From the IMG/VR virus record IMGVR_UViG_3300027730_000043, positions 1-49,114 of that record: a DNA stretch of 49,114 bases; one strand, 5' to 3'. Origin of the DNA: a virus. The first letter of the stretch is position 1. Each line of letters begins with the position of its first letter. Of the stretch, positions 2,172-46,544 are shown one piece after another. Below the pieces are notes generated by a model, which did no database searches, was not told the origin of the DNA, and worked only from the letters and a program-made list of their open reading frames with translations. Both the position numbers and the translations under genes were made by a program.

Positions 2172-3197
2172 TTATTTGTAATATCTGTTTAAAGCATTTT
2201 GGGTAATAAAAACATATTCAGTTTCTTTGAATTCTTCCAAAGTTCTTGAGTTAGTATAAGACATTGCTGACTTTAAGTAGTCTTCAAAGTTTTCAATCCA
2301 TTTTTCCATTGTATATTCAACTTTGTTATACTTAACAATACCCTCTGATGTTGTTAATTTCTGTTTCCCCCACTTTTTCTGAACTTCTTTGGTGCTCATA
2401 CCTCTGAATTTCTTAAACATAAATCTCCTCAAAAATTTAAGGTTATCCCACATATATTTTGATGTTGATTTATTCAATGGAATTAGTTTTCCAAAATAAA
2501 CTGGGGAACAAGATTCAAGGGATTTATTTAAAACACCACCCAACATCACATAATCAGCACCTAGAGCCAATGCTTTGATTATGTCATCATAATTTCTGAA
2601 TCCACCATCGGCAATAATCTTCGTATGGTAGTTTCTATTCTTTTTGATTTGATAACATTCTGAAATTAGGGAAGCCATTGGGTAATGTATTCCGGTATTT
2701 GCTGATGTAAGACAACCAGATCCTCCACCAATACCAACTCGGACATAATCAACCCCCAATTCTGCAAACTTTTCATAGGTTGTGGGATTGGCAATATTCC
2801 CAATCATCAATTTATGATTTGTTTTGATTTCATTAACAAAATATTTGCATAAATCATATAATTTTGTCATATGACCATTGGCGATATCAACCAATATTTT
2901 GGTTTCAATGGGTTCTACTTCAAAACGTTTGTGTTTGTCAATCATTAATTCAAATTCTGTTAATGATATTGATGTAAACCCATCGTATTCATCTAATCTT
3001 TCGTTTCTTGGTAAACATACTTCCATTTTCATATCTGAGAATATGGAATAGTTGTTATAATCAATAACAGTGTCCATTGGACTGACTATTATTGGTAATT
3101 TGTTGTTTGAATTTTTAATATCAATCTCATTTCTTGATGAAATTGAGGAGAGGGCTTCTGGAACTAATGTAATGTCTTTAAAATCGAACTTTTGCAT
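2172..3197 (-). CDS. IMP dehydrogenase / GMP reductase family enzyme
   Basis: A 341-residue TIM-barrel protein. The N-terminal FDFKDITLVP and VSPMDTV segments match the start of IMPDH/GMPR. The catalytic loop GIGGGSGCLTSANTG (residues 155-169) contains the nucleophile Cys162, and IIADGGFRNYDDIIKALALGADYVMLGG is the phosphate-binding strand-helix. A flap-like FRGMSTKEVQKKWG follows. There is no CBS pair, and the length fits GMP reductase (about 340 residues), so GMPR is the more likely activity (GMP to IMP using NADPH), which would act in nucleotide salvage during infection. IMPDH without CBS cannot be excluded. Confidence 0.88.
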   Translation of the reverse strand: MQKFDFKDITLVPEALSSISSRNEIDIKNSNNKLPIIVSPMDTVIDYNNYSIFSDMKMEVCLPRNERLDEYDGFTSISLTEFELMIDKHKRFEVEPIETKILVDIANGHMTKLYDLCKYFVNEIKTNHKLMIGNIANPTTYEKFAELGVDYVRVGIGGGSGCLTSANTGIHYPMASLISECYQIKKNRNYHTKIIADGGFRNYDDIIKALALGADYVMLGGVLNKSLESCSPVYFGKLIPLNKSTSKYMWDNLKFLRRFMFKKFRGMSTKEVQKKWGKQKLTTSEGIVKYNKVEYTMEKWIENFEDYLKSAMSYTNSRTLEEFKETEYVFITQNALNRYYK

Positions 3198-3249
3198 ATT
3201 AACCTTATTTTTTAAAAAGGATAATCATTAAAAATGGATAGTTCAAGTT

Positions 3250-3873
3250 CTATCCCTTGAATCGCCTCACCATTTTGGATAATAGTTCTTTGAAGATAAT
3301 GCCAGATAATGTTAATCCAGTGAATCCAATGATTCTGATAGCAAATTCTTTCAAATCAAGGCTAGTTACCAATCCATCTGTAACCATTTGATATATTAGG
3401 GGGATTAATGGTATGATGAAAGTATAACTCATCATATTTGTAATTTTATGAAAGGTCACACCCAGACCATCAACAAAATCAAGGAAAGTATTCCTTAATA
3501 AATCACTCTTTTTTAATATATTTTCAAATTGTTTGACAATTCCTTCATCTTTAATTTTGTTATAGATTTTTGTTAAGAATTTTTTATTCTCAACAAAATA
3601 GGTTGCAATAACACCAATCAAAATAAGGTTAAGTTGTAACTCAGAAAGACTTGGGTATTTTCCTCTAACAAAATCTTCAATTGGACCCATAAAGCCACCA
3701 ATACCAGCCCCCCAAGTTAACAAGAATTGAAGGTTAAGTCCTATTTGTGATTTGGCCTCCTCAATTATTTTTTTAACCCTTTCGGCATTTTGTTTAATGA
3801 TACCACCTAGTTGTTCTCCAGTACTTTCTCTAAGTAGTATTCGTCTTTGACTTTCTGTTATTATAATTTTCAT
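3250..3873 (-). CDS. tagged multi-helix membrane protein
   Basis: A 207-residue protein when started at 3873; the open frame extends to 4035 but that part is low-complexity and overlaps the divergent gene. The N-terminus MKIIITESQRRILLRES is a tag variant. Hydrophobic segments lie around residues 46-65, 80-98, 140-165 and 175-195, with short amphipathic linkers. A membrane-associated virion or envelope role is plausible but unproven. The gene is divergent from the acidic-repeat gene at 3922, and both starts are preceded by ATATTTAT-type sequences. Confidence 0.75.
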   Translation of the reverse strand: MKIIITESQRRILLRESTGEQLGGIIKQNAERVKKIIEEAKSQIGLNLQFLLTWGAGIGGFMGPIEDFVRGKYPSLSELQLNLILIGVIATYFVENKKFLTKIYNKIKDEGIVKQFENILKKSDLLRNTFLDFVDGLGVTFHKITNMMSYTFIIPLIPLIYQMVTDGLVTSLDLKEFAIRIIGFTGLTLSGIIFKELLSKMVRRFKG

Positions 3874-3900
3874 AATGATAAATATTTTAATAAATACATT

Positions 3901-3915
3901 ATATTTATGAATAAA
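3901..3915 (+). promoter_or_regulatory. late-promoter-like element
   Basis: ATATTTAT-GAA-TAAA, 21 bases upstream of the ATG at 3922. It matches the consensus exactly. Confidence 0.55.
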
Positions 3916-3921
3916 AAGATT

Positions 3922-4479
3922 ATGAACGCATATTTTTTCAAAATGAATCAAGCAGAAAAGAATGATATTCTTGACCAACATAGACAAGTGTATGATGGTT
4001 ATGTAACAACATATGGTCAACAGATAAATCAACAACCATTATATGTACAAGATTTCGCTAATGACAAGGTTGGCTTGGTTGTTAATAATAAGGGTGTTGT
4101 TAAGCCATATTCTAATATGAGAATAAATGAAATGAGACATGATGGTATGGATATCGGATTGTTTTCTGACGAGGAAGACATTTATATGACACCAACAGAC
4201 GAAGATTTTGATGGATTGGATATGATTGGTGACGGTCCCAATGATTTGGAATATGGTACAATGGGTGATTCATCTGAAGAAGATGAGACATATTTAAAGG
4301 ATATTGATGAAGAAGAATATTCTGAAGAAGATGAGACATATTTAAAGGATATTGATGATGAAGAATATTCTGAAGATTATGAGACATATTTAAATGATGT
4401 TGATGAAGATATGATTGAACCACTTCAAGAACAAGTAAATAAAACTTTGGATATGTTTAAACGATTTAAAAGATACTAA
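3922..4479 (+). CDS. acidic repeat protein, probable virion or scaffold component
   Basis: A 185-residue protein when started at 3922. The N-terminal 65 residues (MNAYFFKMNQAEKNDILDQH, then VYDGYVTTYGQ, QPLYVQDFANDKVG and VNNKGVVKPYSNM) look like a conserved domain. The C-terminal half is very acidic and holds three tandem copies of a 16-17-residue unit, (E/D)-x-E-T-Y-L-(K/N)-D-(I/V)-D, around residues 118-170, ending in a basic FKRFKRY tail. Acidic repeats with a basic tail recall phage scaffold or core proteins, but the function is not established. The next ATG comes one base after the stop. Confidence 0.75.
   Translation: MNAYFFKMNQAEKNDILDQHRQVYDGYVTTYGQQINQQPLYVQDFANDKVGLVVNNKGVVKPYSNMRINEMRHDGMDIGLFSDEEDIYMTPTDEDFDGLDMIGDGPNDLEYGTMGDSSEEDETYLKDIDEEEYSEEDETYLKDIDDEEYSEDYETYLNDVDEDMIEPLQEQVNKTLDMFKRFKRY
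4264..4410 (+). repeat. three tandem in-frame repeats encoding acidic units
   Basis: Three near-identical units of about 50 bases, each containing gagacatatttaaa(g/t)gat, lie inside the 3922 gene. They are in frame and look like a recent internal duplication. Confidence 0.8.
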
Positions 4480-14590: not shown

Positions 14591-15994
14591 ATGAACTTCT
14601 TAGACGCATTACAAACAGAAGACACATTTACTGAAAATGGTATGGTTACAAATTCATCAACTCTTAATGAGTGTGTGAATTTATTCTTCACCATTGGAGC
14701 AATGAGAGGACAAGACAAACAAAGATTGTTGAGTAATTTCTCAAAGGCATTTAATGAAAATCCATTGACTGCGATGCGTATTCTATTTTGGTCAAGAGAT
14801 GTTCGTGGAGGTGCTGGTGAAAGACAAATATTCCGTGATATAATCCAATTCTTAGCAGAAACGGATTCAGAAGTATTGGCAAAGAACATTAAGTTCATCC
14901 CAGAATTCGGTCGTTGGGACGATTTAACTGTCCTATTCAACACCAAAGTGAATAACGATGCGATGGCGACAATAATCCAGGGATTAGAATCCCGTAATGG
15001 ATTGTGTGCAAAGTGGATGCCAAGAAAAGGGGTTATATTTAACTCCATCAGAAAGGCTATGGGTCTGACACCAAAATCTTTACGTAAAATGTTGGTTGAA
15101 CTTTCCAACACCGTAGAACAAAAGATGTGTGCAAATGAGTGGTCAAATATTGAATACTCTAAACTACCATCTTTATCTATGGGAAGATATTCAAAAGCGT
15201 TTCCAAAACACGATAGTCTTGGGTTTGGTCAATATATTCTCGCCCTTAAAAATGGTGAGACTAAGGTAAATGCAAGTGCAGTTTATCCTTATGATGTTGT
15301 CAAAACCTTGAACTTAGGTAATAGAGAATTAGCTATTGAACAATGGAAAGCTCTTCCAAATTTTATGGAAGGATGTACCGAAAGAATACTACCTGTTGTG
15401 GATGTTTCAGGATCTATGATTAGCAGTGTTGGTGGAAACGCCAATGTTACTTGTATGGATGTTGCAATATCATTGGGATTGTATATTTCTGAGAGAAATG
15501 AGGGTGTATTCAAAGATAGTTTTATTACTTTCTCTGAAAAACCTGAACTACAAAAACTAAGTGGTGATTTGTATCAAAGATATACACAACTTAGTCGTTC
15601 TGATTGGGGTATGAGTACAAACCTTGAGAAAGTGTTTAGAGTAATCCTTGGTCAGGCAGTGAAACATAATGTCTCTGAGAATGAAATGCCAACGAAAATC
15701 CTTATCTTGTCTGATATGGAATTTAATCAAGCAACAAACCTACCTTTAACTGCAATGCAGATGATTCGTAGGGAGTACGAACAACACGGATACACTTTAC
15801 CTAGTATCGTTTATTGGAATATTCAATCAAGAAATAAGAACTTCCCAGTTCGTTTCGATGAAAAGGGAACATCATTGATTTCTGGTTTGAGTCCTGCAAT
15901 AATGAAATCAGTTTTGGTAGGAAATATTGATTCACCAGAATCAATTATGAATATCACGATTGACTCAGATAGATACAAGATGTTAGTAATCTAA
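14591..15994 (+). CDS. DUF2828/TROVE-like vWA protein (Ro60-like)
   Basis: A 467-residue protein. The N-terminal about 250 residues are helical, with the signatures FWSRDVRGGAGERQIF (about 66-81) and FIPEFGRWDDL. The C-terminal domain is a von Willebrand A fold with a complete MIDAS: DVSGSM (271-276), MSTNLEKV (Thr) and ILSDMEF (Asp). A helical repeat domain followed by a MIDAS vWA is the plan of TROVE proteins such as Ro60/Rsr, which bind misfolded RNAs and Y RNAs; the sequence resembles the DUF2828 family. RNA binding is inferred. Three tandem structured RNA units begin seven bases after its stop, reminiscent of rsr-Y RNA linkage in bacteria. Confidence 0.8.
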   Translation: MNFLDALQTEDTFTENGMVTNSSTLNECVNLFFTIGAMRGQDKQRLLSNFSKAFNENPLTAMRILFWSRDVRGGAGERQIFRDIIQFLAETDSEVLAKNIKFIPEFGRWDDLTVLFNTKVNNDAMATIIQGLESRNGLCAKWMPRKGVIFNSIRKAMGLTPKSLRKMLVELSNTVEQKMCANEWSNIEYSKLPSLSMGRYSKAFPKHDSLGFGQYILALKNGETKVNASAVYPYDVVKTLNLGNRELAIEQWKALPNFMEGCTERILPVVDVSGSMISSVGGNANVTCMDVAISLGLYISERNEGVFKDSFITFSEKPELQKLSGDLYQRYTQLSRSDWGMSTNLEKVFRVILGQAVKHNVSENEMPTKILILSDMEFNQATNLPLTAMQMIRREYEQHGYTLPSIVYWNIQSRNKNFPVRFDEKGTSLISGLSPAIMKSVLVGNIDSPESIMNITIDSDRYKMLVI

Positions 15995-17091: not shown

Positions 17092-17880
17092 ATGAAAGAA
17101 CTATACAAAGGACACTACCAAAATGTTTTAAGAGGTCAAAAATTAGCAACTGAAGCTGCTAAGTTGAAATCTGATAAGGTAAAAGAAGAGTATAATAAAA
17201 CCCCTAATAAATGTACGAATTGTGGGAATGATTTGACTTATCCTCAAAGACATAACAAGTTTTGTTGTAGTTCTTGTGCCGCAAGTTTTAACAATAAAAA
17301 TAGAGGTGGACATAAGGAAGAAACTAAGATTAAAATTTCAAAGAAACTTGAGGGGAGAACTTTAAGTCCTGAACATAAAGAGAAGTCCATTAAATCCCTT
17401 CAACGAGTGGTCAAACAAAGACACGATGAGGGTTATGAAAGATTCTTAAACAAAAAGACAGGAAAAAATTGTGTTATATGTAACACAGAAATTACTTACG
17501 AAAATAGATTTAGAAAAACTTGTTCAGATGAGTGTCAAATAAAAAGTAAAACAAACAGAAAATACTTGAATGGTAGTAGAAAAACAATAAACTACAATGG
17601 TATTATTTTGGAATCAAGTTGGGAATTAAAATTAGCAGAATGGTTGGATGAGTATAAGATTAAATGGATAAGACCAGAACCAATTAAATGGGTTTTAGAT
17701 GGTAAAAACAAACTTTATTATCCTGACTTTTATCTACCAGATTTCAACTTGTATCTAGATCCAAAAAATCCATATTGTATGGATAAGGATAGGGTGAAAA
17801 TGGAAATTGTATCAAAAGAAATTAATATTATTTTTGGCGATATTGATTATGTAATTACTAAATTAGGGGATGTGGTGTAA
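17092..17880 (+). CDS. PD-(D/E)XK-type homing endonuclease with zinc fingers
   Basis: A 262-residue protein. Two zinc-finger-like elements (CTNCGNDLTYPQRHNKFCCSSC at about 39-60 and CVICN...CSDEC at about 128-148) flank a NUMOD-like segment (ISKKLEGRTLSPEHKEKS). The C-terminal nuclease is SSWELKLAEWLDE, then YYPDFYLPDFNLYLDPKN: a PD-(D/E)XK-type core in which the usual E-x-K is D-x-K. The last codons and stop (GGG GAT GTG GTG TAA) are also the 5' end of tRNA-Pro, so the gene abuts and overlaps a tRNA, typical of homing next to a conserved target. Confidence 0.75.
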   Translation: MKELYKGHYQNVLRGQKLATEAAKLKSDKVKEEYNKTPNKCTNCGNDLTYPQRHNKFCCSSCAASFNNKNRGGHKEETKIKISKKLEGRTLSPEHKEKSIKSLQRVVKQRHDEGYERFLNKKTGKNCVICNTEITYENRFRKTCSDECQIKSKTNRKYLNGSRKTINYNGIILESSWELKLAEWLDEYKIKWIRPEPIKWVLDGKNKLYYPDFYLPDFNLYLDPKNPYCMDKDRVKMEIVSKEINIIFGDIDYVITKLGDVV

Positions 17881-18458: not shown

Positions 18459-18490
18459 CATAGATTAAAAGTCAATTGTTCGAATGTGAT

Positions 18491-18506
18491 ATATTTATAT
18501 ATAATA
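18491..18506 (+). promoter_or_regulatory. late-promoter-like element
   Basis: ATATTTAT-ATA-TAAT, 30 bases before the ATG at 18521 of the second endonuclease gene. Confidence 0.5.
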
Positions 18507-18520
18507 AAATATTACATAAA

Positions 18521-19138
18521 ATGAAAAGTTGTGAAAATTGTAGTTTAGAACACGATGGTACATATGGTTCTGGTAGATTTTGTTGTTCAAAGTGTGCTAG
18601 AAGTTTCAGTACTAAAAATAAAAGAAATGAGATTAATCGAAAGGTTTCGAAATCACTTGCTGGCAGGGGACATGGAAAAATAAAATTAATTTGTGAAAAT
18701 TGTAAAAATCAATTTGAAGTTAATTGGACTAAACGAAATCAAAAGACGTGTTCATTTAGTTGTAGTTCTTCACTTAAATGGGAAAACGAAGATTATAAAA
18801 GAAAGATGTCTATCATTAATTCAAATAATGCTTATGAAAGACATAAAAATGATGATAAAACTTTTGGTTGGAAAACTAGGAAAAAGTTAGAACCATCTTA
18901 CCCCGAAAAGGTGGCTATGAGAGTTTTAGATTCTTTAAATATTCAATACGAATATGAAATGCCATTAGAAAGATATTATGTTGACTTTGCAATACACGAT
19001 AGAAAAATTGCTATCGAAATAGATGGTAAACAACATGATAAGCCTGAACGAATCATAACTGATAAACTTAAAGATAAACTTTTGATTAAAAATGGGTGGG
19101 ATTTTTCTTTTAAAATTTTCAACCGAAATGTTAATTAG
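18521..19138 (+). CDS. homing endonuclease, DUF559/Vsr-like, C-terminus possibly truncated
   Basis: A 205-residue protein when started at 18521. It has two zinc-finger-like elements (CENCSLEHDG...CCSKC; CENCKNQF...CSFSC). The nuclease domain follows: YPEKVAMRVLDSLNIQYEYE, then YYVDFAIHDRKIAIEIDGKQHD, then DKLKDKLLIKNGWDF, the DUF559/Vsr-like PD-(D/E)XK pattern. After GWD the sequence becomes SFKIFNRNVN and ends, whereas relatives usually continue with a hydrophobic strand (V-I-R-I) and a helix. The 3' end therefore may be truncated, perhaps at the junction with the downstream restriction-modification cassette. Confidence 0.7.
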   Translation: MKSCENCSLEHDGTYGSGRFCCSKCARSFSTKNKRNEINRKVSKSLAGRGHGKIKLICENCKNQFEVNWTKRNQKTCSFSCSSSLKWENEDYKRKMSIINSNNAYERHKNDDKTFGWKTRKKLEPSYPEKVAMRVLDSLNIQYEYEMPLERYYVDFAIHDRKIAIEIDGKQHDKPERIITDKLKDKLLIKNGWDFSFKIFNRNVN

Positions 19139-24883: not shown

Positions 24884-24987
24884 AACTTAATGCCTAGGTG
24901 GTGTAATGGTAGCCACGCAAGACTTAAAGAAAACTCGTAAAATTTTAAAAAAGAATGTTTGAGGGTTCGATTTAATTAACTTTGTTG

Positions 24988-25002
24988 ATATTTATATATA
25001 AA
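24988..25002 (+). promoter_or_regulatory. late-promoter-like element inside the intron
   Basis: ATATTTAT-ATA-TAAA, 24 bases before the endonuclease ATG at 25012. It would allow expression of the ORF independently of the tRNA transcript. Confidence 0.6.
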
Positions 25003-25011
25003 GGAATATAT

Positions 25012-25845
25012 ATGAAAACAAAATACAATAAAGAAGAGTTAATAGAAGCCGTTAAAAAAAGTTATTCAATAGCTGAAACATGTAGAAATCTATCAATTAG
25101 ACCTATTGGGGGTAATTACAAAACATTGAATATATTAATAAAAGAATTTAATATTGATATTACTCACTTTACAGGCCAAGGTTGGAATGTTGGATTGAAA
25201 TTTAGACCAATGAAAACTTACTCATTAGAGGATATATTGGTTGAAAATTCACAATACAGGAGTTCCTACGGTTTAAAAAAAAAGTTATTTGAACTTGGGG
25301 TGAAACAAGAAAAATGTGAAATTTGTTTAAATTCATTATGGAATGATAAAAAAATTCCTCTCGAATTGCACCATATTAATGGTGTGAATACAGATAATCG
25401 AATAGAAAACTTACAAATTTTATGTTCTAATTGTCACGCACAAACTGAAAATTTTAGAAAAGGGAAGAGTGCTCTTTCTGAAAAGAGAGAAGTAGAATAC
25501 CGTAAATTCAAGGAAGCCTCAGCTAGTAATGTTGGTGGTAATCTTGAGCCAAGTCTTAGAAATAAGAAAGGTGCAGAGACTAGACACGGTACACCTAAGT
25601 CTAAACCCCCGAAAAGAACTTGTCATCTTTGTGATAATACTCTGACTCGTAATCAAAAAATATATTGTTCAACAGAATGTTATTTTCAAGGCACAAAAGG
25701 AAAAAGACCTCCAGTGTTTGAACTTATTAAAAAATTTGAAGAACTGAAATCTTTTGTCAGTGTTGGAAAATTTTATAATGTTAGTGATAATGCAATAAGG
25801 AAATGGTGTTCTTATTATGGGATTTTAGATATGGTGAAGGTATAG
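25012..25845 (+). CDS. intron-encoded HNH homing endonuclease
   Basis: A 277-residue protein when started at 25012. An N-terminal HTH-like segment (YNKEELIEAVKKSYSIAETC) precedes the HNH core CEICLN...IPLELHHINGVNTDNRIENLQILCSNCHAQ (two CxxC, catalytic LHHI). Residues about 165-200 (ASNVGGNLEPSLRNKKGAET onward) are the translation of the group I intron core. A CxxC zinc element (CHLCDNTLTRNQKIYCSTEC) and a C-terminal HTH (KFYNVSDNAIRKWC) follow, encoded in the P8-side loop; the same HTH ends the endonuclease at 26538. The stop codon TAG lies in the P7 3' strand. Confidence 0.88.
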   Translation: MKTKYNKEELIEAVKKSYSIAETCRNLSIRPIGGNYKTLNILIKEFNIDITHFTGQGWNVGLKFRPMKTYSLEDILVENSQYRSSYGLKKKLFELGVKQEKCEICLNSLWNDKKIPLELHHINGVNTDNRIENLQILCSNCHAQTENFRKGKSALSEKREVEYRKFKEASASNVGGNLEPSLRNKKGAETRHGTPKSKPPKRTCHLCDNTLTRNQKIYCSTECYFQGTKGKRPPVFELIKKFEELKSFVSVGKFYNVSDNAIRKWCSYYGILDMVKV

Positions 25846-25953
25846 TCCAGACTACAAACCAAAAGGGTGGTGAAAGCCATAGTAGTAAGAAAATCTTGTG
25901 ATTTGTAAGAATCGTGCGGGTTCGAGTCCCGCCCTGGGTACAAAAAATATTAT

Positions 25954-26173: not shown

Positions 26174-26267
26174 AGTTAGGTGGTGTAATTGGTAGACACT
26201 CGCTTAAAGGTGCGGTTAGTCAACGAAATGTAAAGCTAACGTATAGGTTCGAATCCTGTCCTAACTA
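26174..26267 (+). tRNA. class II tRNA, Leu-like, atypical anticodon stem
   Basis: Acceptor AGTTAGG/CCTAACT, D stem GTGT/ACAC, variable arm GTTAG/CTAAC and T arm ATAGG-TTCGAAT-CCTGT are all good. The anticodon arm is only CGC/GCG around an 8-base loop TTAAAGGT, so the anticodon (perhaps UAA) is uncertain. Confidence 0.65.
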
Positions 26268-26289
26268 CTTGGTTGGGGAGAGACTGTTA

Positions 26290-26442: not shown

Positions 26443-26513
26443 CAAAAAAATTACCAAGAATCAAATAAATTGAAATTTTTTGGTTAGGATACTAAACTTA
26501 CGAACACTTGTGT

Positions 26514-26528
26514 ATATTTATATATAAA
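26514..26528 (+). promoter_or_regulatory. late-promoter-like element
   Basis: ATATTTAT-ATA-TAAA, 24 bases before the ATG at 26538. Confidence 0.6.
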
Positions 26529-26537
26529 ATGAATATT

Positions 26538-27437
26538 ATGTTTAAGTGTAAAGTATGTCAAAAAGAGTTTTCTAATAAGGGGGGTCTAGTTACTCACGAA
26601 GGTGCTTGTGAAAAGGTTTTTACATATAAAGAAGAAATTAAAAAACTTTATAGTGAGGATTTGTGGAGTATAAGAAACCTATGTGAGAAATACAAGGTCG
26701 GTAAGGGGATTATCAGTGATATATTGTGTGACTTGATAAGGAGTAATAGTGAAAGTAGTAAAATAGGAAAAAAAAGGTTTCCATATGTGCATACCGAGGA
26801 GTCCAAAAAAATACTCAGGGAGAAAAGATTAGAGTTTATGAAAAAACACCCTGAAAAAACTTCTTGGCGTCAAAAAAATATTTCTTATCCTGAAAAAGTT
26901 TTTTTTAACAAAATAAATGAAATTGGGTGGGATAAAAAATATTCAATAGTTAGAGAGTTTTCAGTATTTCCTTTTTTTATTGATTTCGCATTTATGAATG
27001 AAATGGTTGCTGTAGAAATTGATGGGTCACAACATCTCTTAGAAGAAAGAAAGAAAAAAGATCAAATTAAAGATAAAGTATTAAACGAACAAGGATGGTG
27101 TGTAATAAGAATTAGTGAAAATGAAATCAAAAAAAATATTGATGAAACTATTGAAAAGTTAGAGGTTATTTTGTTATCTTTGGTGAAGGAAAAAAAATAC
27201 GAGTTTGGTATTATAGAATTACCTAAAACAAGAGTAAAAAAAGAAAGATTGGAAAATGGATTAACTAAAGGTGAATTGAATCGTATGGTAAATGGAAGAA
27301 GAGTGGAACGTCCATTTTATACTGAATTGATTAAATCGGTGGAAGAAATTGGATATCTTGCAACAGGAAAAAAATATGGGGTTAGTGATAATGCCATAAG
27401 AAAGTGGTTAAGATTTTACTTAAAATATGAAAAATAA
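26538..27437 (+). CDS. DUF559/Vsr-like homing endonuclease with HTH tail
   Basis: A 299-residue protein when started at 26538, chosen because promoter-to-ATG spacing then equals that of the intron ORF. It begins with a C2H2-like finger (CKVCQKEFSNKGGLVTHEGAC), then an HTH-like region and the nuclease core YPEKVFFNKINEIGWDK, FFIDFAFMNEMVAVEIDGSQHL, KDQIKDKVLNEQGWCVIRIS (PD-(D/E)XK, DUF559 type, intact). The tail YLATGKKYGVSDNAIRKWLRFY is shared with the intron HNH enzyme at 25012. It ends five bases before tRNA-Glu. Confidence 0.82.
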   Translation: MFKCKVCQKEFSNKGGLVTHEGACEKVFTYKEEIKKLYSEDLWSIRNLCEKYKVGKGIISDILCDLIRSNSESSKIGKKRFPYVHTEESKKILREKRLEFMKKHPEKTSWRQKNISYPEKVFFNKINEIGWDKKYSIVREFSVFPFFIDFAFMNEMVAVEIDGSQHLLEERKKKDQIKDKVLNEQGWCVIRISENEIKKNIDETIEKLEVILLSLVKEKKYEFGIIELPKTRVKKERLENGLTKGELNRMVNGRRVERPFYTELIKSVEEIGYLATGKKYGVSDNAIRKWLRFYLKYEK

Positions 27438-29028: not shown

Positions 29029-29099
29029 GCGGGTATAGCATAAAAGTAATGTTCTAGTCTTCCAAACTAGATAAGTTGGGGCAGTACCAACTATCCGCT
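29029..29099 (+). tRNA. tRNA-Gly(UCC) with non-canonical T-loop
   Basis: Acceptor GCGGGTA/TATCCGC, anticodon stem CTAGT/ACTAG with loop CTTCCAA. T stem GTTGG/CCAAC but loop GGCAGTA instead of TTCRANY. Confidence 0.8.
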
Positions 29100-34223: not shown

Positions 34224-34703
34224 ATGGGAACAAATTACTATAGAATTCCTAGTGTCCGAGAAATGGATGAAAAGAAATCTAAACTTATTGAGGATATTAA
34301 AAATTTGGACATATCTCCATCCTCAATAATATTTAATTTTAAAATAGTCGGTGAAACATTTGAACAAATTTCTTATTGGGATGAATTTACCAAAAACACT
34401 TCAATCCATTTAGGTAAAAGAAGTAGCGGTTGGAAATTCTTATGGAATTTTCATGATAACAAATATTACTCAAACAAAGAAGAATTATTTAATTTCATAA
34501 AATCAGGAAGAATAGTTGATGAATATGGAACTGAAATTGGTTTTGATGAGTTTATAACTATGTCACTTGAATGGGGACAACCTAATGGATTTGATATGAA
34601 AAAATATCGTCAAGAACATCCAAGACAATATCATTATGATTTTGAACATCAGGAGACATATATTGACGGATTAAGAGTTTCACCAAATAATGATTTTTGT
34701 TAA
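34224..34703 (+). CDS. conserved MGTNYY-type protein, unknown
   Basis: A 159-residue protein beginning MGTNYYRIPS, with SIHLGKRSSGWKFLWNFH and a C-terminal HYDFEHQETYIDGLRVS. Proteins with the MGTNYY start and IHxGKxSxGW motif recur in phages and bacteria. The related bacterial proteins often contain a zinc finger after the start, which is missing here. Function unknown. Confidence 0.75.
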   Translation: MGTNYYRIPSVREMDEKKSKLIEDIKNLDISPSSIIFNFKIVGETFEQISYWDEFTKNTSIHLGKRSSGWKFLWNFHDNKYYSNKEELFNFIKSGRIVDEYGTEIGFDEFITMSLEWGQPNGFDMKKYRQEHPRQYHYDFEHQETYIDGLRVSPNNDFC

Positions 34704-34704
34704 A

Positions 34705-35715
34705 ATGGAAAGGAAATTAGCAAGCATACAAATTGTAAAAGAAGTCAAACCAATACCTGGTGCTGATATGATTGAAGTTGTTAGAATAAACAACTGGGAT
34801 GTTGTATCTAAGAAAGGGGAATACAAAGTTGGTGACTTCTGTATCTATTGTGAAATAGATTCATTCTTACCTATAAAGGAAGAATTTGAATTCTTGAGAA
34901 AAACATCTTACAAGAAAATGTCTGATGGATCAGAAGGATTTAGATTGAGGACAATCAGACTTCGTGAACAATTGAGTCAAGGTTTAATACTACCTATTCA
35001 TATTTTACCTTTGGGTGAATTGGTTAGTGAGGGAAAAGATGTTACTGAAATGTTGGGTATTGTTAAATATGAACACCCAATTCCTGCTGAGCTCGCTGGT
35101 AAGGTTAAAGGACAATTCCCATCTTTTATTCGTAAGACAGATGAAGAAAGAATTCAAAACCTATCTGACAAGTATGAAGAAATTAAGAATTATGGTAAGG
35201 ATTTCTATGTTACAGAAAAGTTGGATGGGACTAGTGCAACATTCTACCTTAAAGATGGTGAATTTGGGATTTGTTCAAGAAATCTTGAGCTTTTGGATAG
35301 TGAGGGTAACACCTTTTGGAAAGTTGCAAGAGAATTGAACTTAGAGGATTCTTTATCCAAATTGGGTTATAATATCTGTATTCAGGGTGAGCTTATAGGT
35401 GAGGGGGTGCAATCCAATCCATACAAGATAAAAGGTCAGACAGTTAGATTCTTCAATGTGTTCAATATTGATGAACAAAAAAATATCCCATTCACAAAAT
35501 TTCTAATCTTAATGGAAGAATTGGGTTTGAAACCTGTTCCAGTGTTGGATTACAATTTTGAACTACCAAATACAATTGATGAATTACTTGTACTGGCAGA
35601 TAAAAAATCTGAACTTAATGGGAACTTTGATAGAGAAGGAATCGTTATAAGATCATACGATAGAAAAATATCATTCAAAGTTATATCAAACCAATTTTTG
35701 TTAAACGAAAAATAA
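34705..35715 (+). CDS. RNA ligase, DRB0094/Rnl5-like
   Basis: A 336-residue protein started at 34705 (MERKLASIQIV). The N-terminal about 120 residues form an OB-like module (IPGADMIEVVRINNWDVVSKK, VGDFCIYCEIDSFLP) as in DRB0094-type ligases. The nucleotidyltransferase domain has motif I EKLDGTSATFY with the lysine nucleophile K172, then motif IIIa/IV-like (IQGELIGEGVQ) and motif V-like REGIVIRS...SFKVIS. It seals RNA nicks using ATP. With tRNAs and a cREC gene close by, tRNA repair after host anticodon-nuclease attack is a reasonable role. Confidence 0.88.
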   Translation: MERKLASIQIVKEVKPIPGADMIEVVRINNWDVVSKKGEYKVGDFCIYCEIDSFLPIKEEFEFLRKTSYKKMSDGSEGFRLRTIRLREQLSQGLILPIHILPLGELVSEGKDVTEMLGIVKYEHPIPAELAGKVKGQFPSFIRKTDEERIQNLSDKYEEIKNYGKDFYVTEKLDGTSATFYLKDGEFGICSRNLELLDSEGNTFWKVARELNLEDSLSKLGYNICIQGELIGEGVQSNPYKIKGQTVRFFNVFNIDEQKNIPFTKFLILMEELGLKPVPVLDYNFELPNTIDELLVLADKKSELNGNFDREGIVIRSYDRKISFKVISNQFLLNEK

Positions 35716-39627: not shown

Positions 39628-40299
39628 TTATTTATTGATAATTCTGCCTTTTACCCACCCTTCGTTTAAAAAAGTAGATAAACCGTCTTTTTTAATTTTT
39701 TTATTTTGATTATCTTTTGTAATCCAAATTGTACCAAATTGTGAATTTGTTTCACCTAAACCTACATTTTTTTTTATCATAGACATTTTCTTTTTTGACT
39801 CCTCTGAGTGTTTTTTGCCTGTCCAATCATAAGTGAAGTTTTTTAATTTCCCCTCAAGATGTCTTTTTTTTCCTGATTTGGACATTGTTTCTGAATGTTT
39901 TTTACGGAATTCTTCATCATTCTTTAATTTTTCTATGAAAATCTTTTTTCCAAGTTCAGAACCTTTACGTTGGAAATTTAAAAAATGTTTTTCATCAATG
40001 AACCCACCTGACTCACCTCCAACTACCAAATTCATACACAAATTATCTAATAATAATTCTTTATTAACTATTTCTTTTTCTTTTTCCAATAAAATTTTTC
40101 TGCTTGAAAAAAATTCTAAAATTTCTTTAGTGTGGTTTTCTTGGCCGTGATAGTTTATGGAATTCCATAATCTTTTACCACTTCCAAAATAACGATCGTT
40201 TAAATTATCAGTAGAATGTATACCAATATAAAATCTATGGGTTTTTTTACAAGTTATTTTATAAAGATAGTGGTATTTTCTATTTTCTGCTCTCATCAT
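39628..40299 (-). CDS. GIY-YIG homing endonuclease
   Basis: A 223-residue protein started at 40299. The longer frame to 40383 is rejected because it runs into the tmRNA 3' end and the late-promoter signal lies between. GIY-YIG nuclease at residues 8-95: HYLYKITCKKTHRFYIGIHS, DRYFGSGKRL (catalytic Arg) and a Glu in the EKEIVNKELL helix. Then NUMOD-like DNA-binding elements (TWTGKKHSEESKKKMS-type, FGTIWITKDN). It sits 49 bases downstream of the tmRNA gene on the same strand, like the other endonucleases placed next to tRNAs. Confidence 0.88.
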   Translation of the reverse strand: MMRAENRKYHYLYKITCKKTHRFYIGIHSTDNLNDRYFGSGKRLWNSINYHGQENHTKEILEFFSSRKILLEKEKEIVNKELLLDNLCMNLVVGGESGGFIDEKHFLNFQRKGSELGKKIFIEKLKNDEEFRKKHSETMSKSGKKRHLEGKLKNFTYDWTGKKHSEESKKKMSMIKKNVGLGETNSQFGTIWITKDNQNKKIKKDGLSTFLNEGWVKGRIINK

Positions 40300-40314
40300 A
40301 TATTCTTTTATTAT

Positions 40315-40322
40315 ATAAATAT
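40315..40322 (-). promoter_or_regulatory. late-promoter-like element
   Basis: ATATTTAT-A-TAATAAAA on the minus strand, 16-23 bases before the ATG at 40299. Confidence 0.5.
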
Positions 40323-40347
40323 ATGATAAGAACAAAAACTTCCGATG

Positions 40348-40727
40348 TGGAGATACGGGGAATCGAACCCCGGTGTCGCCCATCTTAACTATTAAGGACT
40401 ACATGTTTAGGACAACATTATTCGCAATGTTCCGAACTACTTGATTTTTATATCCCCCAAAATCAACAAAATCGGCCAATTCATTTTTAGGGATGAGAAT
40501 TAGTTAGACAACCCTATAGTACTCCTGTTCCTGAGTGAATGTACCCCGACTCGAAAGTAATGACCTATTAACTAGGCTACTACCGTTTCTTCTGAACGGA
40601 TTAAACCGACAGCAGAAAGTTTGTCAAAGATGTTGCCATCTGTGTTTTAAACCAGTTTAACAGACTTAGTTCAGGTCTGACATGCCCCTAATAACCAACA
40701 ATGTCGATCGATGCCAATTTATCCCCA
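40348..40727 (-). ncRNA. ssrA: tmRNA
   Basis: 380 bases on the minus strand. 5' GGGGATA pairs with 3' TATCTCC to form the tRNA-like acceptor. The 5' side holds TTGGCATCGATCGACA and GGGGCATGTCAGACC (tmRNA 5' consensus and first pseudoknot). The 3' side holds CTAAACATGTAGTCC and the T arm CCGGGG-TTCGATT-CCCCG(G/T). tmRNA rescues stalled ribosomes by adding a degradation tag. The tag frame is uncertain: GCA at 40637 gives 11 codons to TAA; another frame ends in S-E-E-T-V-V-A at TAG 40575. Neither equals the usual Bacteroidetes ending ALAA. CCA is not encoded beyond the acceptor. Confidence 0.88.
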
Positions 40728-43631: not shown

Positions 43632-43661
43632 AAAAAAGGGACTATTCAGTCCCTTTTTTCT
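43632..43661. terminator. bidirectional hairpin terminator
   Basis: Stem AAAAAAGGGACT/AGTCCCTTTTTT with loop ATTC between convergent genes. The 3' end of the minus-strand ClpC-like gene lies inside it. Confidence 0.9.
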
Positions 43662-44919
43662 TTTTATTCTTCTTTGGTGTCATTAACACCACTTTTTCTT
43701 CTTCCACTGTAAGTTCATATTTCTCGTTCTCAACTATTTTCCCATTCAAGACTTCCTCAGATATGAAATCCTCAATTTGGTCTTGTATGGCTCGTTTTAT
43801 TGGCCTTGCACCATATGTTTCATCAAACCCAACTTTGGATATCAATTCCAATACTTTTTCATCACAAGTAATATTATATTTCAAACCATTTAATCTGTTT
43901 ATCAATTTGTCAATTTCAAGTTTAACAATTTGTTTAACTTCTTCTTCTTTTAGGGTATTGAATACAATAACTTCATCTATTCGGTTTAAGAATTCTGGAG
44001 CAAAGAATTTCTTAAGTTCTTTTTTCAACATGTCCCTTTTTTGTTCTTCTTCAATATAAGAATTTGTTGTGGTTTTGAATCCAACTCCAGTTCCGAATTC
44101 TTGGAATTTCTTAACCCCCAAATTTGATGTCATAATGATAATACAATTTTTAAAATTGATTTTTCTTCCTAAGCCATCGGTTAAATGACCTTCATCCAAT
44201 ACTTGGAGTAAGGTTGAAAATACATCCTTATTTGCCTTTTCAATTTCATCAAATAGAATTACAGAATATGGTTTGTTTTTAACCAATTCGGTTAATTGTC
44301 CTCCCTCATCATAACCAACATAACCTGGAGGGGCCCCAATCAATCTAGATATTGAATGTTTTTCTTGGTATTCTGACATATCAACTCTGATTAGATTTTC
44401 TTCACTACCAAATATTTCTTTGGCTAATTGTTTGGCTAAATATGTATTGTGTGACAAAATACCGTTAGTATAATATCTCCTATTAGAATTTTCATTCAAT
44501 TCAAGATCATACATAATTTCCTTATAACCTAAATTAGTTATTTCTAACACCTCAGATTCAATTAAATTGCCGTTATTATCAGATACCATAACAAACGAAC
44601 CAATATTTAAATCTTTAACAAAGATTTCAGTTAAACCAATTGGTTCAAAAGTAATTTCATAATATTCGGTAACAAATACAATATGATTATCCGCACATTT
44701 AAGTTCTTTACCATCAGATAATTTTAAATGATACACCTCATAAGGGATTGTTTCATGTAATGCCTCAATATCAATAAACCCATCATCAGTTAAAACTTCG
44801 TATTCGGTTATTTTAGTCGTTTTGGTTATCTTTTTTAATGACTCTAATTCATGTCTATCTAATAAAAAAACATTATCTGAGTTTTCAATTAAATTCCTTA
44901 TTTCTTCTAATTTATTCAT
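43642..44919 (-). CDS. C-terminal half of split ClpC-like ATPase, fused to C-intein
   Basis: A 425-residue protein. Residues 1-158 are the C-intein: block B YEVYHLKLSDGKELKCADNH (the His of the TxxH-type motif), then strands to block F YDLELNENSNRRYYTNG and block G ILSHN, ending in Asn158. The +1 residue Thr159 continues Walker A of the second AAA domain: TYLAKQLAKEIFG. Walker B ILFDEIEKA, sensor 1 MTSNLG and an arginine-finger region, then the D2-small domain (YGARPIKRAIQ) follow. It depends on trans-splicing with the product of 45219-46544. ATG follows the endonuclease stop by one base. Confidence 0.9.
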   Translation of the reverse strand: MNKLEEIRNLIENSDNVFLLDRHELESLKKITKTTKITEYEVLTDDGFIDIEALHETIPYEVYHLKLSDGKELKCADNHIVFVTEYYEITFEPIGLTEIFVKDLNIGSFVMVSDNNGNLIESEVLEITNLGYKEIMYDLELNENSNRRYYTNGILSHNTYLAKQLAKEIFGSEENLIRVDMSEYQEKHSISRLIGAPPGYVGYDEGGQLTELVKNKPYSVILFDEIEKANKDVFSTLLQVLDEGHLTDGLGRKINFKNCIIIMTSNLGVKKFQEFGTGVGFKTTTNSYIEEEQKRDMLKKELKKFFAPEFLNRIDEVIVFNTLKEEEVKQIVKLEIDKLINRLNGLKYNITCDEKVLELISKVGFDETYGARPIKRAIQDQIEDFISEEVLNGKIVENEKYELTVEEEKVVLMTPKKNKKKKGTE

Positions 44920-45323
44920 CTTATTTAGTTAAAAAATTTATACATTTATTTATAATTTCTTGTTTATTACCCCATCTATATTCTGAATCCCATATAACTA
45001 ATATTTCAAAACCTTGTTTATTTGCTTGAAATAATTTCTTTTCGTCTTTCTCCCACATTTCTTGTGCTGTAATGTTTTTTCTAAATGGGTTTGGATAATC
45101 CGAAGCATTATATTTATTTGGGTTACCGTGATAATCATCCCCATTGTATTCAATAATTTTTTTATTTTTCAAATCGGTAAAATCATATAACCACACGCCA
45201 CCATTTTCTTTTTCTATTTTATACTCTCCATTGTGTATCGGTAATGATATTTTCTATTTTTATTGTTTTTATTTCACCAGTTATTTTATTTCTAACAATT
45301 ATTTCCGTATCTCCACTAATACA
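44446..45323 (-). mobile_element. atypically split intein with intervening endonuclease ORF
   Basis: N-intein 45222-45323 (34 codons, block A CISGDTEI, ends ITDTQWRV then stop); endonuclease ORF 44921-45196; C-intein 44446-44919 (158 codons, blocks B, F and G). The split lies between blocks A and B, not at the usual endonuclease site between B and F. Insertion point is inside Walker A, GSTGVGK | T. Confidence 0.88.
44921..45196 (-). CDS. Vsr-like endonuclease ORF within the split intein
   Basis: A 91-residue ORF. WLYDFTDLKNKKIIEYNGDD then YHGNPNKYN, TAQEMWEKDEKKLFQANKQGF and EILVIWDSEYRWG match the Vsr-like PD-(D/E)XK fold (E-Y-N-G-D, H and the D-x-K...IWDSE elements) seen in endonucleases associated with phage inteins. 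The only plausible start is GTG at 45196; the frame is open a further 19 codons upstream (HNGEYKIEKENGG precedes). The N-terminal DNA-binding part is short or lost, so activity is uncertain. It lies 22 bases after the N-intein stop and one base before the C-intein ATG. Confidence 0.75.
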   Translation of the reverse strand: MWLYDFTDLKNKKIIEYNGDDYHGNPNKYNASDYPNPFRKNITAQEMWEKDEKKLFQANKQGFEILVIWDSEYRWGNKQEIINKCINFLTK

Positions 45324-46544
45324 CTTACCCACCCCAGTTGAACCTAAGAATATGAATGAACCAATTGGTTTATTGGGGTCTTTAATCCCCAATCTATTTC
45401 TTCTGATAGCTTTGGCGATTTTCATTACAGCGTCGGATTGACCAATAACTTTTGATGATAAATTATCACCCAATGTTGATAGTTTATTGGTTTCATCTGA
45501 ATTCATTTTTGATATTGGTATTTTTGTCATATTGGACACAACCTCATATACTAGCTCAACGGAAATTTCTTTCTTTTCGTTTAACAAATCGGATTCAAAT
45601 TTTTTCTTTTCTTCATCTAGTTTATCCAATATTTTAGTTTCCTTATCTCTTAAATCAGCCGCCAATTCATAATTTTGACTTTTAACAACTTCAATCTTTT
45701 GTTGTTTGATATCTTGAGCTTTCTGTTTCAAATCTTCAATAATTTGTGGCATCTTAGTATCAACTTGACTTCTTGCACCAACTTCATCAATAATGTCAAA
45801 GGCTTTGTCAGGAAATTCTCTATCTGTGATATATCGTTCCGCCAAATCAACACAAAGTTTTAGGACTTCATCGCTATAAGTTACTTTATGATAATTTTCA
45901 TATTTGTCTTTAGTGTTTGTTAAGATATTTAACGTTTCTTTTTTTGTTGAGGGGTCAACAATTACTTTTTGGAATCTTCTTTCTAATGCCCCATCTTTTT
46001 CAAAGTTCTTTCTATATTCATCTAGGGTTGTCGCACCAATACATTGGATTTCCCCTCTTGCTAATGCTGGTTTGAATATGTTGGAGGCATCTAATGACCC
46101 TGATGAATTTCCAGCACCAACTATTTGGTGGATTTCATCAATGAATAGAATTATATTTGGAGCATTTTGAAGTTCATCAATAATGATTTTCATTCTTTCT
46201 TCAAATTGTCCTCTATATTTTGTTCCAGCGACAATGGATGTCATATCTAGGGACATAATTCTTTTGTCCATTAGATTTCTTGGACATTCTCCATTTAATA
46301 TTTTAAGGGCAAGACCCTCTACTATAGCCGTTTTACCGCAACCAGGTTCTCCGATGATAATTGGGTTATTCTTTTTTCTTCTTGAAAGAATTTGTGCAAT
46401 TCTAGTTATTTCTCTATCTCTACCTACCACCGGATCTAATTTTCCTTCTTCGGCAAGTTTGATTAAATCTTTTGCAAAGTTATTTAACACTGGTGTGTCC
46501 CCTTTGCCCTTGTTTGAGTAGTCTCCGTCTTTTGAATCTATCAT
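45219..46544 (-). CDS. N-terminal half of split ClpC-like ATPase, fused to N-intein
   Basis: A 441-residue protein lacking the usual Clp N-domain. First AAA domain: Walker A GEPGCGKT (65-72), Walker B IILFIDEIH (131-139), LERRFQKV arginine finger. A middle region with a UVR-like motif VVKSQNYELAADLRDKE, typical of ClpC, follows. The second AAA domain starts at VIGQSDAVMKIAKAIRR and is cut at GSTGVGK (401-407). Residues 408-441 are the N-intein. After splicing the ATPase would be about 670 residues, an unfoldase that feeds a protease or remodels complexes. Confidence 0.92.
   Translation of the reverse strand: MIDSKDGDYSNKGKGDTPVLNNFAKDLIKLAEEGKLDPVVGRDREITRIAQILSRRKKNNPIIIGEPGCGKTAIVEGLALKILNGECPRNLMDKRIMSLDMTSIVAGTKYRGQFEERMKIIIDELQNAPNIILFIDEIHQIVGAGNSSGSLDASNIFKPALARGEIQCIGATTLDEYRKNFEKDGALERRFQKVIVDPSTKKETLNILTNTKDKYENYHKVTYSDEVLKLCVDLAERYITDREFPDKAFDIIDEVGARSQVDTKMPQIIEDLKQKAQDIKQQKIEVVKSQNYELAADLRDKETKILDKLDEEKKKFESDLLNEKKEISVELVYEVVSNMTKIPISKMNSDETNKLSTLGDNLSSKVIGQSDAVMKIAKAIRRNRLGIKDPNKPIGSFIFLGSTGVGKCISGDTEIIVRNKITGEIKTIKIENIITDTQWRV

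Follow-up and report, generated by a model that had tools for sequence, protein, structure and literature searches.

Group IC3 introns interrupt the tRNA-Leu(UAA) genes of cyanobacteria and plastids. Phage introns tend toward protein genes (PMC3984707), and group I introns are known in which an endonuclease open reading frame (ORF) overlaps the catalytic core (PMC3984707, Figure 2b). In T7-like phages and a cyanophage, a freestanding endonuclease and an ORF-less intron share the same target, an arrangement termed collaborative homing (PMC3984707, PMC2988022, PMC10448857). The locus analyzed here lies in IMG/VR virus record IMGVR_UViG_3300027730_000043, whose positions 1 to 49,114 were examined as one 49,114-nt stretch (hereafter, the window). 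It is a phage tRNA-Leu(UAA) gene split by a group I intron, with an HNH endonuclease ORF that runs in frame through the ribozyme core. We consider it probable (about 80%) that this is a self-splicing, homing intron that arose through collaborative homing and the capture of a gene.

The 5' exon of the tRNA gene (positions 24892-24925, plus strand) ends at U34 with CAAGACTT; the 3' exon (25890-25940, plus strand) starts at A35 with AAAATCTTG and includes a long variable arm, CCA not being encoded. Joining the two yields GCCTAGGTGGTGTAATGGTAGCCACGCAAGACTTAAAATCTTGTGATTTGTAAGAATCGTGCGGGTTCGAGTCCCGCCCTGGGTA, which ARAGORN calls as tRNA-Leu(taa), confirming an initial annotation of the locus that had assembled the exons into a class II tRNA-Leu(UAA). 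The spliced molecule forms all seven acceptor pairs, all five anticodon-stem pairs and a four-pair variable arm. When ARAGORN was run on the unspliced window, it reported 16 tRNAs, tRNA-Leu(UAA) not among them; the two halves sit between tRNA-Asp (24500) and tRNA-Tyr (25954). A join at 25898, giving the anticodon ttt, was ruled out because the conserved AAAATCTTG would be left out. UUA accounts for 313 of the 601 Leu codons sampled in this AT-rich phage (52%). Identical copies of the locus are present in two further IMG/VR contigs (L122 and L124), and a third copy (L123) is 87% identical, which argues against an assembly artefact. A megablast search of window positions 1-24800 against cultured phages returned no match.

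The intron spans 964 nt (24926-25889, plus strand), is inserted between U34 and A35 and ends in G25889. Its internal guide sequence, GAGU (25467-25470), pairs with the last three bases of exon 1, CUU (U34·G), so that the start of the ORF lies in the P1 loop. A different guide, TTTGAGG near 24957, with the ORF start in P2, was dropped since the alignment described below puts GAGU at 25467. Downstream on the same strand are the 5' strand of P3, UACCGU (25498-25503; partner 25586-25591), the 5' strand of P7, GACUA (R element, 25578-25582), and the P8 helix (25592-25836), closed by CACC (25592-25595) with GGUG (25833-25836). The 3' strand of P7, UAGUC (S element, 25843-25847), follows, and the P9.0/P9 region leads to the terminal G (25850-25889). 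Both the position of the group I intron, at the site used in cyanobacteria and plastids, and the P7 pairing GACTA/TAGTC had been proposed in the initial annotation and are borne out. The limits it had set for the core, 25500-25850, enclose most of the core (25467-25889) and miss P1/P2 and P9. A covariance search with Rfam model RF00028 gave a partial group I match, below the gathering cut-off, at 25447-25592 (E = 8.9e-9, 41 bits), over model positions 5-158 of 253 only.

The structure was tested on an alignment of 30 compact ORF-less tRNA-Leu(UAA) introns from phages and bacteria and six ORF-bearing introns with their inserts removed, taking P1, P2, P3, P4, P5, P6, P7 (the pseudoknot), P8, P9 and the anticodon stem into account. 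Across the 36 sequences, 97.6% of cells are paired, against 75.6% in shuffled alignments and no more than 42.5% when the structure is slid; the covariation score is 0.621, against 0.187 after shuffling. Three of the five P7 pairs have changed on both sides (GACTA/TAGTC, GAGCA/TGCTC, GACTT/AAGTC and others), and the U·G at the 5' splice site (U34·G25467 in the window) is invariant (36/36). Once its two coding inserts are removed, the window sequence forms 55 of the 56 consensus pairs, including every pair of P3, P4, P6, P7 and P8. A profile built from related introns finds both halves of the core (E = 5.8e-16 and 4.9e-19), the second hit being the 3' half, with the P7 3' strand and P9, at 25827-25900. 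Pairing, covariation and the profile search all identify a group I intron, which is predicted to splice. We provisionally take it to be IC3-like from the resemblance of its core to the cyanobacterial one.

The ORF (25012-25845, plus strand) encodes 277 amino acids from an ATG at 25012 to a TAG at 25843-25845, and is preceded at 6 nt by AAAGGA (25000-25005), which on reading of the sequence is a likely ribosome-binding site. Residues 2-265 match PHROG family phrog_10822 (E 1e-53). The initial annotation was thus correct in naming an HNH ORF, but had missed that this frame continues through the core. The N-terminal and HNH domains (residues 1-150; 25012-25461) are encoded inside the P1 loop. Residues 151-197 (25462-25602) form an interdomain linker encoded by the core itself, from the 3' strand of P1 through P2, P3, P4, P5 and P6 to the 5' strand of P7. 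The remaining residues, 198-277, are encoded in the P8 loop and contain a zinc-ribbon-like CxxC..CxxxC and a helix-turn-helix-like VSDNAxRKWC motif; these domain names reflect a reading of the motifs rather than a family match. The stop codon falls inside the 3' strand of P7 and makes up its first three bases.

The same interleaved layout is found in five divergent loci: the window, L123, L125, L126 and L045, the last four being 87%, 60%, about 55% and 53% identical to the window, respectively. Freestanding homologues (L127, L128 and L132) keep the N-terminal, HNH and C-terminal parts, joined by a short linker with no core segment. Synonymous differences per site range between 0.13 and 0.37 over the core, compared to 0.43-0.74 in the HNH part and 0.27-0.70 in the C-terminal part, and the core has the lower synonymous share in all ten pairwise comparisons of the loci. 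Insertions and deletions over the core come in multiples of three, and of 115 distinct ORF-less introns just 10 leave this frame uninterrupted over that segment. Low synonymous change in a frame that is held open indicates that the core is constrained as RNA, as its double use predicts.

Residues H121, N133 and H142 are invariant among 19 relatives of the endonuclease. An AlphaFold model made with these relatives has high confidence at residues of approximately 70-150 and 200-277, and a predicted local distance difference test (pLDDT) score below 50 at residues 172-194; with a predicted template modelling score (pTM) of 0.37, the arrangement of the domains is not to be trusted. A phmmer search of the protein against the PDB found nothing and a Foldseek search of the model gave no match under E 0.001, so the predicted fold adds nothing beyond the low-confidence linker. 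Among the relatives, the intron HNH ORF of L144 (2995-3456) has in-frame TAG where others have glutamine, and the phage concerned may read TAG as Gln. A freestanding putative nuclease elsewhere in the window (26508-27437) ends in a VSDNAIRKW motif shared with the intron endonuclease.

The spread of these introns in viruses was surveyed by a single scan of IMG/VR with a phage-derived pattern of the intron 3' end. This returned 117 viral stretches with 72 distinct tRNA sequences, nearly all of which splice to tRNA-Leu(UAA), a count biased to UAA because the pattern includes AAAATC of the 3' exon. Most of the viral introns are 178-232 nt long without an ORF; about a dozen measure 688-964 nt. The initial annotation had considered a phage tRNA carrying such an intron uncommon, which the 117 stretches contradict. 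The same intron is present in the cultured Agrobacterium phage Atu_ph07 and in two uncultured huge phages (595 and 735 kb). Rfam reported no group I intron at E 0.01 in these three loci, although joining the exons and aligning the sequences makes the introns plain; on its own, Rfam detects this group poorly. In 30 of 116 viral loci (L012, L021, L048, L121 and others) the intron lies in a UAA tRNA with a 5-nt variable region and a class I body, for example GCCCGTGTAGCCCAGCGGAAGAGGCAAGAGACTTAAAATCTCTCAAGCGGTGGTTCGAATCCACTCACGGGTA. Such tRNAs are possibly charged by leucyl-tRNA synthetase; possibly, too, the intron landed in another tRNA together with flanking exon bases.

The pattern scan of bacteria, with one genome per species, produced at least 119 matches, those listed being mostly tRNA-Leu(UAA) genes of Proteobacteria, Acidobacteria and Bacteroidales. 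Viral introns and bacterial introns tend to group apart in the intron tree, yet they intermix, with at least three switches forced by supported branches. The nearest bacterial relatives of the window intron, among the matches listed, are from rumen Bacteroidales, and nothing in these data links the intron specifically to cyanobacteria. Two Bacteroidales genes, one with an ORF-less intron (L175) and one with an HNH relative in the intron (L229), lie downstream of mreB, mreC, mrdA-like and rodA-like ORFs (named from reading of their translations), a position which indicates that they are chromosomal. The mixed tree and the close relatives in chromosomal genes lend support to the suggestion, made in the initial annotation, that phages could carry tRNA introns.

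Freestanding homologues of the endonuclease have a tRNA-Leu gene within 250 bp in 17 of 18 distinct loci; the gene is often of the UAA type and mostly intronless. When positions were shuffled among the tRNAs of each locus, an average of 9.9 of the 18 loci were Leu-flanked and the value of 17 was not reached in 20000 trials. As for the 72 viral intron-bearing sequences, the HNH gene is inside the intron in 9 and stands beside an ORF-less intron, 40-272 bp away, in 20; it is missing in 35 whose flanks are long enough to show it, and the other 8 are flanked by too little sequence. No gene of this HNH family was found within 800 bp of any of 50 uninterrupted tRNA-Leu(UAA) sequences having the anticodon arm of the window. 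The difference between intron-bearing and uninterrupted genes is significant by Fisher's test (1.6e-9, or 3.5e-7 when only adjacent HNH genes are counted). Thus, the HNH family tracks tRNA-Leu genes.

The protein tree mixes freestanding and intron-borne forms, with at least three changes forced by supported branches; for instance, L126, an interleaved intron form, is sister to L138, a freestanding form beside tRNA-Leu(UAA) (support 99/95). In the huge phage L002, the HNH gene occupies the P6 region, after P5 and before P7, and not P1, suggesting that capture occurred more than once or that the gene moved within the intron. Empty sites, in the form of many intronless tRNA-Leu(UAA) alleles, exist. 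The freestanding gene adjacent to an ORF-less intron occurs in relatives; the window itself has the captured form. Enzyme genes beside the tRNA, beside the intron, inside it and interleaved with it look like stages in the assembly of a mobile intron.

In the model that we favour, the anticodon loop of the phage tRNA-Leu(UAA) is interrupted by a mobile group I (IC3-like) intron. The precursor would fold so that P1, in which CUU pairs with GAG and U34 with G, holds exon 1. A guanosine bound in P7 would attack after U34, and the exons would be joined before A35. By removing itself, the ribozyme would release the tRNA that reads UUA. Translated from the unspliced transcript, the HNH enzyme would cut, close to the anticodon, those tRNA-Leu(UAA) alleles that lack the intron; the intron would be copied in during repair and so spread. 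The enzyme probably descends from a family of freestanding endonucleases living beside tRNA-Leu genes; an ORF-less intron that had come to share this target (collaborative homing) would then have captured the enzyme gene. Present-day freestanding relatives beside ORF-less introns may move those introns in trans (PMC3984707, PMC2988022). In the form seen in the window, the domains would have become split over the P1 and P8 loops, the linker between them being the in-frame translation of the catalytic core. Since a ribosome moving along the ORF would unfold the core, a given transcript should be either translated or spliced, not both. We give even odds to the fuller proposal that each transcript has two exclusive fates, either folding and splicing to yield tRNA-Leu(UAA) or being read by ribosomes, with the core as endonuclease linker and splicing blocked, and that this gene, built from a freestanding tRNA-Leu endonuclease, is selected for both readings.

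Several points weigh against this interpretation. The RF00028 match scores 41 bits where the gathering cut-off is 50; we ascribe its partial, low-scoring character to the coding sequence of approximately 240 nt that splits the P8 loop and displaces the 3' part of the model. In the window, the P1 pairing is short beside the splice site, where three pairs are firm. The Pfam matches to HNH_3 (2.7e-4) and HNH (6e-4) are just below the cut-offs. The tRNA of L125 looks degenerate though the same intron is present; at this locus (2890-3925) the 3' exon is changed (AAACCCTG) and the long variable arm is missing; it is perhaps decayed. The uninterrupted control genes were chosen by one anticodon-arm sequence, and the counts merge close relatives by identical tRNA sequence only. 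Lastly, splicing, DNA cleavage and its site, homing and the mutual exclusion of translation and splicing are steps that we infer from sequence.

Other explanations can be set against these data. The element could be an ordinary tRNA intron with an endonuclease in one loop, the open core frame and the C-terminal part being fortuitous or a decayed remnant. The HNH ORFs of L134 and L200 indeed end early in the core without a C-terminal domain, suggesting that frames often extend into the core, perhaps by chance at first. However, chance does not account well for five divergent loci that keep the frame through the core up to a C-terminal domain aligning with freestanding homologues, nor for core indels in threes and constrained synonymous sites in a frame that so few ORF-less introns hold open. 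We regard this explanation as improbable. An equally doubtful one is that the endonuclease targets something else, its proximity to tRNA-Leu reflecting a general crowding of HNH genes in phage tRNA clusters. Such clusters do collect endonucleases, and the window has several others among its tRNAs; against crowding stand the excess of Leu flanks over shuffled positions and the absence of the gene around the 50 controls, and tRNA-Leu is the sole nearby tRNA in several loci (L135, L138).

It is very unlikely that the protein is mainly a maturase, serving the folding of its own intron and no longer working as an endonuclease. Proteins of other group I introns are known to have this role, and a linker encoded by the core would suit it; against it are the conservation of H121, N133 and H142, the same domains in close freestanding homologues that have no intron, and the numerous ORF-less introns with the same core that need no such protein in cis. 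We find it harder still to believe that intron and tRNA are dead, the locus no longer splicing and the ORF alone being of consequence. This idea draws on L125, in whose tRNA the variable arm is short and one anticodon-stem pair is disrupted. In the window, by contrast, all core helices are intact, the tRNA is complete with covarying stems, most Leu codons are UUA and the 49 kb yield no further call of tRNA-Leu(UAA). The homing intron assembled by capture of a tRNA-Leu endonuclease remains the explanation that we favour.

Other features of the window concern tRNAs and mobile elements. At 26174-26268 is a tRNA with an 8-nt anticodon loop (TTAAAGGT), to which ARAGORN assigns the four-base anticodon aaag and which scores above the Rfam tRNA cut-off; it is possibly a frameshift-suppressor or a nuclease-resistant tRNA. 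A tRNA at 29029-29099 is found by Rfam (46 bits) and not by ARAGORN. On the minus strand, a phage transfer-messenger RNA (40345-40726; Rfam 83 bits) is directly followed by an ORF (39628-40383) that reads as a GIY-YIG-like endonuclease and has no Pfam match, and a ClpA/B-like ATPase (43642-46544) is divided between two ORFs, the point of division being marked by intein splicing motifs (CISGDTEI.., ..GILSHN; Pfam Intein_splicing 4e-5). Freestanding putative nucleases lie among the tRNA genes at 17092-17880, 18476-19138 and 26508-27437, two of them of the DUF559/MTES_1575 type. An RNA ligase of the PHA02142/RNA_ligase type and a DUF7788/DUF2828 protein (34690-35715 and 14591-15994, respectively) would fit a phage that repairs tRNAs or handles RNA.

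Phage tRNA totals may be underestimates, since intron-bearing tRNA-Leu(UAA) genes abound in phage contigs yet escape ARAGORN in their unspliced form; the shortfall would concern the Leu codon most used by AT-rich phages. Al-Shayeb 2020 (PMC7162821) gives tRNA counts and does not mention introns, and we found no paper on tRNA-Leu(UAA) group I introns of phages in the open-licence literature. With one enzyme family and one target in four states in natural phages, the order of the steps and the sharing of a cleavage site become directly testable. The interleaved form also offers a compact example of RNA under simultaneous constraint as ribozyme and as protein.

With the cyanobacterial and plastid IC3 introns, the window intron shares the site after U34, the U·G at the 5' splice site, the terminal G and the core elements, and the compact P2 and P9 with GAAA loops of those introns recur in ORF-less members of the survey set. 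It differs in residing in a phage gene, in its length of 964 nt, in its two-loop ORF with a translated core, and in having its nearest listed relatives in phages and Bacteroidales. I-Ssp6803I is a nuclease of the PD-(D/E)XK family. It belongs to an intron of Synechocystis tRNA-fMet (Bonocora and Shub 2001, cited in PMC3984707), likewise an anticodon intron with an endonuclease aimed at the tRNA gene, though in another tRNA and another intron, with a nuclease of another family, and not in a phage. T4 SegB (PMC2988022) is, like the enzyme described here, a phage homing endonuclease beside tRNA genes, freestanding in a tRNA cluster; unlike it, SegB is GIY-YIG and not HNH, and has no intron. The PHROG 10822 family, which the window protein matches over most of its length, is annotated as HNH endonuclease with no mention of tRNA-Leu or introns. 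The 20 viral sequences with a freestanding HNH relative beside an ORF-less intron resemble known collaborative homing; here, however, the target is a tRNA gene, and freestanding, adjacent, captured and interleaved states occur in one protein family. Likewise, the core-overlapping ORFs described previously (PMC3984707) read into core sequence, whereas in the window nearly the whole 5' core, from P2 to the 5' strand of P7, links two folded domains, the second of which is in P8. In conclusion, group I introns at this tRNA site, HNH genes in phage introns, collaborative homing and core-overlapping ORFs are already known singly (PMC3984707); what is new is the abundance of these introns in phages, the full series of states of one endonuclease family at one tRNA, and a two-loop gene with the ribozyme core as its linker.
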